DNA of 64,000 nucleotides from an uncultured Sulfurovum sp. (GTDB lineage: Bacteria; Campylobacterota; Campylobacteria; Campylobacterales; Sulfurovaceae): contig CACVAP010000061.1 in NCBI GenBank assembly GCA_902727895.1, forward strand, positions 1 through 64,000, written 5' to 3'. The notes below the pieces were generated by a model, which was not told where the DNA came from, did no database searches, and worked only from the letters and a program-made list of their open reading frames with translations. Positions 44,696-49,142 of this stretch are shown here, one piece after another (position 1 is the stretch's first letter; every line of letters starts with the position of its first letter). The translations under genes and the position numbers were made by a program.

Positions 44696-45745
44696 TCAGA
44701 GTAGAGAGTAACTTGTTTGCGACTGTTTTTGGACAAGGGTTTCCTTAATTTGAATGGCATCTATGGCATAACATTTTGGACATCGTGTAAAGCCTATAGG
44801 GAAATGATTTTTACATTTTCCACAGCCATAACTAAAGAGTAAATCTACATTGGTTTTATTACCTATTTTACTAGCAATAATGGTGTCAATAGAAAAAATA
44901 TTACTTCTTTTATTTAACTCTTCTGTCTCTAATGAGCCTTTTGCGAGGTAGATAGCAGATAAGGTTTCATTGTTTGAAATTATATCAAAGTTGAGGTTTA
45001 ATGAGGGTAAGAACCACAGAATATCAAGAATAGAGCCAATTCTATCATTTTCAATGTTTTCCCATGCCACATTTAAATCTAAGGTGAAAAGGGCTTTCAT
45101 AATCCTACGGTAAGGATAATTTTTTTCTTGAAGTAGGGCTGTTAGTTGACTCACCTTTTCAGCTTTAGAGAGCTTTTTTTGTTCTAAAAGTTTAGAAAGT
45201 TCAATGTGTGCCTGAAGTTTTTCTGTTTTTTCACCGAGAATCTCTAAAGGGGTGAGGGTTTCTAATGCTTTGTCAAATTCATGCATGAGTTCATAGACAA
45301 TACCTAAGTAGTAAAGGGCTTTTTTGTTTCTAGGATGTTTGTTTAAAATTTCTAAATAGATTAGTTTTGAGCGTTTTAAAAAACCAGCTTTTAAATAAGT
45401 CTCTCCTAATTGCTCTAGTATTTTTTCTTTCTCAAAAAAGTTTGAAATATTATCAATAAGGTAGAGGTTTAGATTAATGGACTTTTGGTACTCACCTTGG
45501 GTTTTAAATGCTTGTGCTAAAAGGCTTAATGGTTTAATCAAAGCTTTTTCAAAAGGCATCTCTTCAATGTTCAAGACAGCATTGTCTTTTTTGAAACCAC
45601 AAAGAAATTTTTCCAGAGAGTTTTTTTTCTTTTTTTCTTTATAGTTTCCTACAATTAAAGAGGAAACAGCAACAATCAGAATTAAGATAATGATGATTAA
45701 AATAGAAAAAAGTGGGTCATCATATGCTGGTAAAATATTGTCCAA
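44696..45745 (-). CDS. LapB/YciM-like TPR protein with zinc ribbon
   Basis: 349 aa. An N-terminal membrane anchor (LFSILIIIILILIVAVSS) is followed by TPR helices from about 65 to 280 (LNLYLIDNIS, YLKAGFLKRSKLIYLEIL, YYLGIVYELMHEFDKAL). The C-terminal rubredoxin-type ribbon CGKCKNHFPIGFTRCPKC (about 308-325) should bind a metal. This architecture matches LapB, which in E. coli controls LpxC turnover and LPS assembly. Whether it has that role in Campylobacterota is inference. It lies divergently from the ATPase-nuclease pair. Confidence 0.78.
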   Translation of the reverse strand: MDNILPAYDDPLFSILIIIILILIVAVSSLIVGNYKEKKKKNSLEKFLCGFKKDNAVLNIEEMPFEKALIKPLSLLAQAFKTQGEYQKSINLNLYLIDNISNFFEKEKILEQLGETYLKAGFLKRSKLIYLEILNKHPRNKKALYYLGIVYELMHEFDKALETLTPLEILGEKTEKLQAHIELSKLLEQKKLSKAEKVSQLTALLQEKNYPYRRIMKALFTLDLNVAWENIENDRIGSILDILWFLPSLNLNFDIISNNETLSAIYLAKGSLETEELNKRSNIFSIDTIIASKIGNKTNVDLLFSYGCGKCKNHFPIGFTRCPKCYAIDAIQIKETLVQKQSQTSYSLL

Positions 45746-45812
45746 GAATTGCCTTTTTAAAGTTGTTATTGTTTGAGACTATTCTAGCATATTGGATATA
45801 ACATCGTTATGA

Positions 45813-45818
45813 TATAAT
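45813..45818 (+). promoter_or_regulatory. -10 box for the ATPase/PD-(D/E)XK pair
   Basis: TATAAT lies 36 nt before the ATPase ATG in a 109-bp divergent region. AGAGG is the likely ribosome-binding site. Confidence 0.5.
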
Positions 45819-45854: not shown

Positions 45855-46988
45855 ATGGAAAGATTAATAGTAAAAAATTTTGGTCCACTGAAAGATGTAG
45901 ATATTGAACTGAATAAGATTAATCTTTTTATTGGTGAGAATGGTAGTGGGAAGAGTGTTTTGGCAAAGTTGATTACAATCTTTACAAGTTTAAATGAATT
46001 TAGTGAAGAAAAAATTTTAAAAAAAATCAATGAATATAAAATTAATTTTATTAGAGAGGAATCTATAATAGAGTTTTTTAGTAATGATACATTACTATTA
46101 AAACTTCAAAAAGGTAATATAGAATTAGATTTAGACTTGGAAGAAGCAGTTCTTGAAAATGAAAAAGTAAAAGAACCTTGGGAAGAATTATCTAAAAAAA
46201 TAGAGAAAATTGAGACTGAATCTAAAAATTTAAATCTTCTGTTTGAACTTTTTAAAGGTATGCAAAGCTATCAAGAAAGTTTACTTTCTCAATATATCCC
46301 AGCAGAAAGAAATTTGATATCCTTATTTAATAAGTCTCTTACTACATTATTGCTTGCAGAAGTACCATTGCCAAAATTTCTTTTAGCATTTTCTAGTGAA
46401 TTTGAAAAAGCAGGAAATGATTTAAAAGAGTTAAAATTTTTAAATGTAAAATATGTAAATGGAGATGGATTAGATAGACATAAAATTTATTTTAACGATG
46501 AAGATTATTTATCTTTGGAGCATAGTTCAAGTGGAATTCAATCTTCCTTACCTCTTTATCTAACAGTTACATATCTTACTCAAAAACATCGAAATATTAT
46601 TATCGAAGAGCCTGAACAAAACTTATTCCCCAGAGCACAAAAAGAGACTATACAATATATTATAGAGCAAGTATCAGATAGAAATAATTTATTTATGATG
46701 ACTCATAGCCCTTATGTATTAAGTACTTTAAATATTTTAATGATGGCATATAGAGCAGGAAGCTTAGGAGAAGAGGCTAAAAAAGAAGTGAGTGAACTCT
46801 TTACTGTAAAACAATGGATTAATCCTGATAATTTTTCTGCTTATTATTTAGAAAATGGTACGGCTAGAAATATAAAGGGTAGAACAGGACTTATTTCAGA
46901 TAATGAGATAGATGAAATAAGTGATGATATTCAATTTGAGTTTGAGGAGCTTTTAACTATTTATAGAGAACATAAAAATGATAAGTAG
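45855..46988 (+). CDS. AAA/ABC ATPase of a candidate two-gene defence pair
   Basis: 377-aa RecF/OLD-like ATPase. Walker A is GENGSGKSV (about 27-35), a short helical insert covers about 60-145, the sensor-like YIPAERNLISLF lies near 150, the ABC signature is EHSSSGIQSSL, Walker B is IIIEEPEQNLFP, and the switch His is in MMTHSPYVL. The C-terminus is acidic. No TOPRIM domain is present, so it is not an OLD nuclease by itself. The downstream nuclease-like gene starts 11 bp inside it, so they form a coupled pair. The AT-rich coding sequence differs from the rnc and dnaG neighbours. Confidence 0.8.
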   Translation: MERLIVKNFGPLKDVDIELNKINLFIGENGSGKSVLAKLITIFTSLNEFSEEKILKKINEYKINFIREESIIEFFSNDTLLLKLQKGNIELDLDLEEAVLENEKVKEPWEELSKKIEKIETESKNLNLLFELFKGMQSYQESLLSQYIPAERNLISLFNKSLTTLLLAEVPLPKFLLAFSSEFEKAGNDLKELKFLNVKYVNGDGLDRHKIYFNDEDYLSLEHSSSGIQSSLPLYLTVTYLTQKHRNIIIEEPEQNLFPRAQKETIQYIIEQVSDRNNLFMMTHSPYVLSTLNILMMAYRAGSLGEEAKKEVSELFTVKQWINPDNFSAYYLENGTARNIKGRTGLISDNEIDEISDDIQFEFEELLTIYREHKNDK

Positions 46989-47496
46989 TCTAAAAAAGGT
47001 TTTTCCTCATATAGACGAAAAAGAGTGTCTTCAATTTATTAGTGAAAAATCATTTGAGATATTTGACCATGAAGAAGATAAAAAATGTTATGTTTTAGAA
47101 GAAAATGGACAGTTTAAAGTTGTAAATGCTAATGAACAAGAGATAGGCTTTATAGCTGTCGATGAATGTTTATTTAATTCTTCTGATGGGTCAAGGGCTG
47201 ACTGTATTATTTTTGAGGATGAGGTCTTTTGTTTCATAGAGTTAAAGCATTGTAAAAATAAAAACATTCCTCGAAATAGACAAAAAGCAAAAAAACAATT
47301 AATAACTACCATTGAATTTTTTAAAGAGAAAATAAATATAGAACAAAAGTTAGAAGCATATATTTGTGTTACCTGTTCGTCAAATGAAGAAAGAATTACT
47401 ATGACCCCAAGAGCTAATAATGAAGAAGCACAACTTGAATTTGAAGAGTATTACGATACACAACTATTCTATAGTTGCCAGAAAGAATTTAAATGA
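46978..47496 (+). CDS. PD-(D/E)XK-like nuclease partner
   Basis: 172-aa soluble protein. The segment SRADCIIFEDEVFCFIELKHC (split here as SRADCIIF and CFIELKHC) has Asp75 and Glu88-x-Lys90 on two adjacent strands, the pattern of a PD-(D/E)XK nuclease core. A helix with RQKAKKQLITTIEFF follows, as expected after the core. No named family is recognised. It overlaps the ATPase by 11 bp and its last four bases (ATGA) contain the dnaG start, linking three genes translationally. Function as an ATPase-gated nuclease is inference. Confidence 0.68.
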   Translation: MISSLKKVFPHIDEKECLQFISEKSFEIFDHEEDKKCYVLEENGQFKVVNANEQEIGFIAVDECLFNSSDGSRADCIIFEDEVFCFIELKHCKNKNIPRNRQKAKKQLITTIEFFKEKINIEQKLEAYICVTCSSNEERITMTPRANNEEAQLEFEEYYDTQLFYSCQKEFK

Positions 47497-49142
47497 TAGA
47501 CAACGCATCGGTAGAACAACTTAAAAATAACATGGATATTGTTGAGATTATTTCAAATTATATTGAAGTAAAAAAAGCAGGAGCTAACTTTAAGGCAAAT
47601 TGTCCTTTTCATGGGGAGAAAACACCAAGTTTTGTTATAAGTCCTGCTAAGCAAATTTATCATTGTTTTGGCTGTGGAGTTGGTGGTGATGCCATAAAAT
47701 TTGTGCAAGAGTATGAGAAGTTAAATTATCCAGAAGCTTTAGAGAAAATTGCGTCTACGATGAATTTTTCTTTGGCGTACACACAAGGAAGTACTGATAA
47801 TAATGATGCGAGACGTGTTTTAGAGCAAGTTCAAACTTGGTATGCTAAAAATCTAGATTCTACACCTATTTCTTTGGAATACTTACGAAACAGAGGAATT
47901 ACGCAACAGTCTATTGAGACTTTTGGTATTGGTTATGTAGGGGCTTCGCAGGAGCTTATGAATTTTCTTTCAGCCAATATGTTAACCATTCCCAATGCCG
48001 AAGAAGCTGGAGTAGTAGCACAACGTGAAAGAGGTGGGTTTTATGCCCGTTTGACAGAGCGTATTACTTTTCCTATTTATTCTACTTCGGGGGCTATTGT
48101 TGGTTTTGGTGGTCGTACGATTACTAATCATCCTGCTAAATATATTAACTCACCTCAGACTAAAATGTTTAATAAATCACGTTTACTTTATGGTTATGCG
48201 AAAGCTAAAGAGTCGATTTACAAAAATAAAAAGTTAATTGTTTGTGAGGGTTACTTAGATGTAATTATGTTTCATCAAGCTGGTTTTCATGAGGCTGTGG
48301 CTACTTTGGGAACGGCGTTAACAGAAGAGCATTTACCTATTTTACGTAAAGGTGAACCTCATATTATTTTGGCGTATGATGGAGATAAAGCAGGAGTAGC
48401 TGCTGCTTTAAAAGCTGCAACTATGTTGACAGGCTCTGGATTTGATGGTTCGGTGGTACTTTTTCCAGATGGGCAAGATCCAGCAGATATGATAGCTGTA
48501 GGGCAAGTACAAGAAGTGGCTAATTTATTACGTCATGGTCAGGCACTTATTCCATTTGTTATAGAGATGATGGCTAAGTCTTATGATTTAAAGAATCCTA
48601 GAGAGAAAGAAGTGGCTTTTGGTTCTGTAAAAGTTTATTTAGACTCTTTAACCCCTATCATTAGAGAAGCGTATATTGCGCATGCTTCAACCGTTTTAGG
48701 GGTGAATGTTGCTCTCTTTGGTGGAAATGCAAAACTTGAAAATACCAAAGCACGTTTTGAAGAAGGGGCGCGTGATGATGTGGGGCAACTCAGCATTATT
48801 AAGACGCTTATGGAAAATGACAAATTGGTCAACAAAGTAGTGAATGTTATTGATCCAGCTATGTTTGGGAACTATGCTTCATTACTTCAATCAGCTATTA
48901 ATGGTGAAACAAATACAAGTTTGACAGGCTTGAGTTTAGATGAAAATATTAAAGTTATGGATGAAGAAGAATTATCTCGTTCTTTAGCTTCATATTTATT
49001 TCGCTACTATTCTGCAAGGTTAAAAAGTATTACAACCGATGGGCAAATGCCTTTGAAACAAAAAAGCTTTTTAATACGAAAAATAAAAATGGATATTTTA
49101 CCAAGGCTCAAACGTGGTGAATTGGTAACTTACAAATTTTAA
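47493..49142 (+). CDS. dnaG: DNA primase
   Basis: Synthesises RNA primers at the replication fork. 549 aa. The CHC2 zinc-binding domain at about 35-65 contains CPFHGEKTPSF and HCFGCGVGGD. The TOPRIM fold includes VCEGYLDVIMFHQAG with the catalytic Glu and LAYDGDKAG with metal-binding Asp residues. The C-terminal helicase-interacting part is short, as in other Campylobacterota. The start overlaps the preceding nuclease-like gene (ATGA), an unusual arrangement for an essential gene. The parvulin gene follows 16 bp later. Confidence 0.97.
   Translation: MIDNASVEQLKNNMDIVEIISNYIEVKKAGANFKANCPFHGEKTPSFVISPAKQIYHCFGCGVGGDAIKFVQEYEKLNYPEALEKIASTMNFSLAYTQGSTDNNDARRVLEQVQTWYAKNLDSTPISLEYLRNRGITQQSIETFGIGYVGASQELMNFLSANMLTIPNAEEAGVVAQRERGGFYARLTERITFPIYSTSGAIVGFGGRTITNHPAKYINSPQTKMFNKSRLLYGYAKAKESIYKNKKLIVCEGYLDVIMFHQAGFHEAVATLGTALTEEHLPILRKGEPHIILAYDGDKAGVAAALKAATMLTGSGFDGSVVLFPDGQDPADMIAVGQVQEVANLLRHGQALIPFVIEMMAKSYDLKNPREKEVAFGSVKVYLDSLTPIIREAYIAHASTVLGVNVALFGGNAKLENTKARFEEGARDDVGQLSIIKTLMENDKLVNKVVNVIDPAMFGNYASLLQSAINGETNTSLTGLSLDENIKVMDEEELSRSLASYLFRYYSARLKSITTDGQMPLKQKSFLIRKIKMDILPRLKRGELVTYKF

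Follow-up and report, generated by a model that had tools for sequence, protein, structure and literature searches.

A PDC-M29-type cassette of ATPase and putative nuclease genes inserted at the start of dnaG in an uncultured Sulfurovum sp.: a probable mobile anti-phage system with a hypervariable ATPase block

The window analyzed here is a stretch of 64,000 nucleotides on contig C61 of an uncultured Sulfurovum sp., whose genome (G000) is a 2.96-Mb draft. It carries two overlapping genes, jointly referred to as the pair. The first (45855-46988, +) encodes an SMC/Rad50/OLD-like ABC ATPase of 377 aa (AAA_15, PDC-M29A-like), and the second (46978-47496, +) encodes a putative PD-(D/E)XK-type nuclease of 172 aa (PDC-M29B-like). 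Both reading frames share 11 bp, stop codon included. Directly downstream lies the host gene for the primase DnaG (47493-49142, +), which starts 4 bp inside the 3' end of the nuclease gene; the resulting ATGA, in which nuclease stop and dnaG start overlap (47493-47496, +), is also the right-hand junction of an insertion, as seen by comparing an empty site in the relative G019 with a filled one in G009. The other flank is formed by a divergently read host gene encoding a TPR protein (44696-45745, -), which in most relatives is the direct neighbor of dnaG, with no pair in between. Because the TPR Pfam matches are accompanied by a C-terminal CxxC...CxxC, the term LapB-like used for this gene in the earlier note is reasonable, and the position between it and dnaG, the overlapping 172-aa frame, and the AT-richness described there all hold as well. 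The GC content of the pair is 0.272 versus 0.337 for the window, a value that is equally low in about 4.5% of windows of the same size. Relatives of 48-82% identity keep both reading frames, the gene overlap, and the motifs, and the pair is thus more than a chance arrangement.

The ATPase is of the AAA_15/OLD/SMC-like ABC class (Pfam AAA_15, 3e-23), with a Walker A motif (GENGSGKS), a signature (SSSGIQS), a Walker B motif (IIIEEPE), and a THSP loop; the stretches by which it had originally been recognized (GENGSGKSV, IIIEEPEQNLFP, and MMTHSPYVL) are all present in the 377-aa frame. In Pfam, it matches AAA domains alone, without Toprim or UvrD. Structural matching finds its model about equally similar to the heads of SMC, Rad50, and PtuA (Z 13-14.5), with the PtuA proteins of Septu and of retrons among the matches.

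For the small protein, the earlier note had pointed to Asp75 (codon 47200-47202), Glu88 (47239-47241), and Lys90 (47245-47247), placing them on neighboring strands. These residues, together with N50, D62, A104, and Q107, are invariant across 15 relatives that are 18-81% identical to the protein of the window, and the resulting D...ExK...Q arrangement is the pattern of the PD-(D/E)XK superfamily. In a confident AlphaFold2 model made from eight sequences (pLDDT 82), D75 lies on a strand (75-79) and E88/K90 on the adjacent one (83-92), followed by a helix (97-118) and a further strand (124-135). Profile searches in Pfam, NCBIfam, and PHROGs gave weak matches only (HSDR_N_2, YraN, and a Holliday-junction resolvase profile), which fall on or beside the D..ExK segment and belong to PD-(D/E)XK families; the catalytic segment thus matches such families, each of them weakly. 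As to a possible other fold, the predicted topology and the motif fit PD-(D/E)XK, whereas the direct structural matches are weak (best Z 5.5): Can2 (Z 5.4), McrC (5.1), an XisH-like protein (4.9), and EndoMS (4.9) appear among unrelated entries with similar Z. The spacing of 13 between D75 and E88 is also that between D244 and D257 of McrC. Foldseek returned no match for the model at E <= 0.001, and a PDB sequence search with the protein gave no matches. Since the structural list is noisy, the fold call relies on the conserved motif and the topology instead of Z, and on those grounds the prediction of a PD-(D/E)XK-type nuclease is well supported.

Both genes find their best PADLOC-DB match in the same system. 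The top match of the ATPase is PDC-M29A (1.1e-40, best of 91 families). The nuclease matches three families, limited to PDC-M29B and HEC-02B, and the two best of these are PDC-M29B models (3.3e-16 and 4e-7). By these profiles, the pair is of the PDC-M29 type, a catalogued candidate for phage defense, and the idea of a possibly unnamed system has to be given up. Its gene order and adjacency are those of PDC-M29, and it has the D/ExK/Q residues in common with an archetype-like copy in genome G426 (M29A 1.7e-108, M29B 7e-39). On the other hand, the window ATPase scores 138 bits against M29A, compared with 361 bits for the G426 copy, and the two nucleases are only 23% identical; the window pair is therefore a diverged branch within PDC-M29. 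The PDC set stems from the 'guilt-by-embedding' screen of the Payne et al. 2024 preprint, as cited in PMC12988326. In the literature searched, PDC-M29 was not named and no phage assay of it was found.

Among better-known systems, three deserve comparison. Septu also consists of two genes, for an SMC-like ATPase (PtuA) and a small nuclease (PtuB), and the ATPase folds match as described above; PtuB, however, is an HNH nuclease, whereas the 172-aa protein has neither an HNH Pfam match nor a match to the PtuB model, and Septu ATPases taken as controls lack the hypervariable block discussed below. PARIS, composed of the ATPase AriA and the Toprim protein AriB, likewise relies on a published two-gene, trigger-gated logic, and the window ATPase matches the AriA model (9e-25), but its partner is not of the Toprim/AriB (DUF4435) kind: it has no Toprim in Pfam and matches PDC-M29B and HEC-02B alone. 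Finally, Gabija couples GajA (an OLD ATPase with a Toprim domain) to the UvrD-like GajB. The ATPase domain is of the same OLD class (GajA match 6e-12), yet a C-terminal Toprim is missing, and the genes that follow the ATPase are those of the 172-aa protein and dnaG, with no UvrD-like GajB. The pair is thus neither HNH- nor UvrD-linked and stands apart from Septu and Gabija, as had been claimed.

The cassette brings its own promoter element. The TATAAT mentioned in the earlier note (45813-45818) is part of an extended -10, TGATATAAT (45810-45818, +), located 36 bp before the ATPase ATG. A generic sigma-70 promoter scan did not flag it, and the element was revealed by conservation: of 11 copies at different loci, 6 have TGNTATAAT in the 70 bp that precede the ATPase ATG, whereas its frequency in the window predicts about 0.004 occurrences per 70 nt. 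The window shares the leader TATG(A/C)TATAATnrTAACAA with G009, where the locus is the same, and with G019 and G021, whose copies lie at other loci.

The insertion site can be read precisely by comparison with G019, the closest relative (same genus, DnaG 94% identical), where no pair stands in front of dnaG. Its empty site reads ...TATTAGATATAATACCAGTATGATAGATAACGC, in which ATGATAGAT is the dnaG start, whereas the junctions in the window read ...TATTGGATATAACATCGTTATGATATAATCGTAACAA... on the left and ...GAATTTAAATGATAGACAACGC on the right. From these junctions, the dnaG start codon is the exact site of the insert, which is why dnaG overlaps the cassette. As a consequence of this layout, dnaG is probably translationally coupled to the cassette, and its expression would depend on transcription through it. 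The stretch TATGATA is found both in the host site and in the cassette's own promoter, which may reflect either a target duplication or a homology-assisted joining. The insertion in G009 has both junctions in common with that of the window. Between these two genomes, the nucleases are only 47% identical at a DnaG identity of 82%, and the G019 copy, located elsewhere in that genome, resembles the window pair more than the G009 copy does. These sequences may reflect two insertions at one site or a replacement of the pair at a later time.

The pair is mobile and stands alone; it is not a housekeeping unit of the dnaG locus, a possibility that the earlier note had left to be checked. Whereas dnaG is universal in complete relatives, the pair adjoins it only in the window's genome and in G009, and 'wedged before dnaG' is a true description of these two genomes but an accident of location, with the other copies lying elsewhere. 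The gap between the TPR gene and dnaG is 48-224 bp without the pair in 13 relatives, G019 among them, and about 600 bp, again without the pair, in four. Overall, 2-11% of the relatives sampled have the pair. At a loose threshold of E <= 0.001, it was found in 11 of 100 near relatives (the window itself, seven solid copies, and three marginal ones), and it is present in 8 of 175 genomes of the family and in 7 of 397 of the phylum. The other copies adjoin argS, tex, ddl/moeA, PALP enzymes, and further unrelated genes. The copy in G070, a member of another family, is 76% (nuclease) and 67% (ATPase) identical to that of the window at a DnaG identity of 47%, which requires horizontal transfer.

This distribution weighs heavily on the idea of a DNA-repair or replication accessory pair, in which a Rad50/Mre11- or RecF-like ATPase and a structure-specific nuclease would work with the primase. 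Such a role would suit the Rad50/RecF/SMC class of the ATPase, the weak nuclease matches that include EndoMS and Holliday-junction-resolvase-like profiles, and the overlap with dnaG in the window. However, it fits poorly with a pair that is missing in most relatives (its site being empty in the nearest one), has unrelated neighbors elsewhere, moves horizontally, and contains an ATPase block that changes faster than silent sites, and we consider it very improbable.

Relatives of the ATPase extend beyond these genomes. Distant ones occur in two unannotated fecal phage-like contigs (L078:2-1577, +; L079:4200-5956, +), in both of which the ATPase is followed by a protein of 139-140 aa with the same D...ExK...Q residues, a compact version of the pair on what may be mobile elements. 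Protein searches of IMG/VR, plasmid, and phage records gave no relatives of the nuclease. In genome G044, we observed a pair cut by a contig end, together with a nuclease copy that lies broken at the edge of another contig (L067 end, L068 start), as well as a more diverged ATPase with a 139-aa D/ExK partner (L074:987-2575, +). An apparent nuclease-MoeA fusion in G441 was discarded as an artifact of an N-run in the contig.

What, then, might the cassette do? Two genomes place it near genes of a known (Septu) or a candidate (PDC-S27) defense system. In G070, it directly follows Septu PtuAB (L062:8795-11349, +; a PtuA of 589 aa and an HNH-type PtuB, in head-to-tail overlap), and in G021 it lies one unassigned gene, of 366 aa, from a homolog of PDC-S27 (L063:11245-12702, +; E 2e-155). 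These neighbors speak for defense, whereas the location of most copies between housekeeping genes, outside defense islands, and the weak direct fold matches of the nuclease count against it. The selfish alternative is a toxin-antitoxin-like addiction cassette, with a toxic nuclease restrained by the ATPase for the sake of its own persistence and with phage defense secondary or absent. In keeping with addiction, the genes overlap in a bicistron that moves on its own and brings a promoter, no integrase was seen, and the insertion is directly at an essential gene. Against this stand the very low frequency of copies, the defense genes next to them in two genomes, and the full conservation of the catalytic ABC ATPase motifs, for which a passive antitoxin would have no need; we hold addiction to be unlikely, if somewhat less so than a repair role.

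The reading we prefer, and regard as probable, is that the two genes form a mobile PDC-M29-type cassette against phages and, by analogy with known systems, most likely encode an ATPase-gated abortive-infection nuclease. The SMC/OLD-like ABC ATPase would form ATP-bound dimers or higher complexes that hold the small PD-(D/E)XK nuclease. A signal of infection, which is probably a protein or nucleic acid of the phage, would be read partly by a helical arm at residues ~45-145 and change the state of the ATPase, by which the nuclease would be freed or activated. It could then cut phage or host nucleic acid, either DNA or, as in Septu and PARIS, tRNA, and the cleavage would stop phage production. In Septu PtuAB, the motifs of ATPase and nuclease are both needed, and tRNA-Tyr is cleaved (PMC13096335); PARIS, according to PMC12409363, combines a separate ATPase with a tRNA-cutting nuclease. 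PDC-M29 has so far been a name without a mechanism, to which the present data add a precise predicted active site, a predicted effector fold, and evidence of stand-alone mobility.

Residues ~45-145 of the ATPase (45987-46289, +) form a hypervariable block with a predicted helical, Lys/Glu-rich composition, flanked by the Walker A lobe with its helix on one side and by the YIPAERN motif on the other. We think that this block, overlooked in the earlier note and new here, is the most interesting part of the pair; no report of it for PDC-M29 was found in the literature searched. Its amino acid identity between copies collapses to 14-26%, whereas other regions are mostly 70-98% identical (about 50% only in more diverged copies). 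In the strict core (93-145; 46131-46289, +), the observed identity (25-31%) is that of shuffled sequence (26-29%), and the core length across copies ranges from 12 to 73 aa. Searched alone, the block has no relatives in phages and gives only weak matches within the family (E >= 2e-4), a part of which fall on the same ATPases. DGRs substitute bases and leave the length unchanged, and a DGR-like origin was set aside because the core length differs.

Two explanations compete for this block. It may be a helical spacer, free of constraint and open to drift, that senses nothing, a reading that we find quite plausible, although a little short of evenly balanced. Its composition and variable length agree with a spacer, and the core of 12 aa in the G021 copy indicates that the arm is dispensable in some copies. 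Moreover, the silent sites of the window and G019 copies are already so diverged (50-79% identical) that drift could account for the block between these two. The pair of copies in G026 and G022 tells against a spacer: nucleotide identity falls from about 90% to 37-57% in the block and returns to about 90%, with nucleases that are 94% identical. Codon positions 1 and 2 of the block are just 53% identical, versus 71-77% for four-fold sites in the flanks and 91% in the nuclease, which is below neutral drift at the silent rate (P 2e-4 to 5e-6 in a simple binomial that ignores alignment error). Nor do Septu controls of similar overall identity collapse in this way. Four Septu-like PtuA proteins of Rhizobium with partners 87-92% identical have no hypervariable window (lowest 75%), when the first 160 residues of R. 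indicum PtuA are ignored, where the apparent divergence lies in a stretch whose frame is interrupted by a stop codon ahead of the annotated start.

The other explanation, which we put forward tentatively and with less confidence than the spacer, is that of a polymorphic recognition arm, which cassettes that are otherwise nearly identical would exchange or diversify, much as in a variable receptor. The phage factor that triggers the system would then differ from copy to copy, with the nuclease and the ATPase engine kept constant, and residues 45-145 would be the specific place where trigger recognition may be encoded. Should swaps of the block change the phage range, the cassette would offer a simple model for infection recognition by ATPase-gated nucleases.

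The dnaG region of the relatives also holds some minor observations. The gaps of about 600 bp between the TPR gene and dnaG in G011 and G022 contain a conserved acidic frame of 73-79 aa (L076:8645-8884, -; L077:2488-2709, -), which is either a different gene occupying this site or an ancestral one that the other genomes have lost, and gaps of similar size occur in G007 and G012. The DnaG proteins of the Sulfurovum relatives G021, G003, and G017 carry an intein of about 370 aa (CLAPTEEIRT...SFLVGN) with a LAGLIDADG-like motif, located inside the zinc-ribbon motif (HCFG|CGVGG; L028:184-2976, +; L030, -; L036:184-2964, +). DnaG of the window is without an intein, and that of G075 gives the same split match as the intein-bearing relatives.
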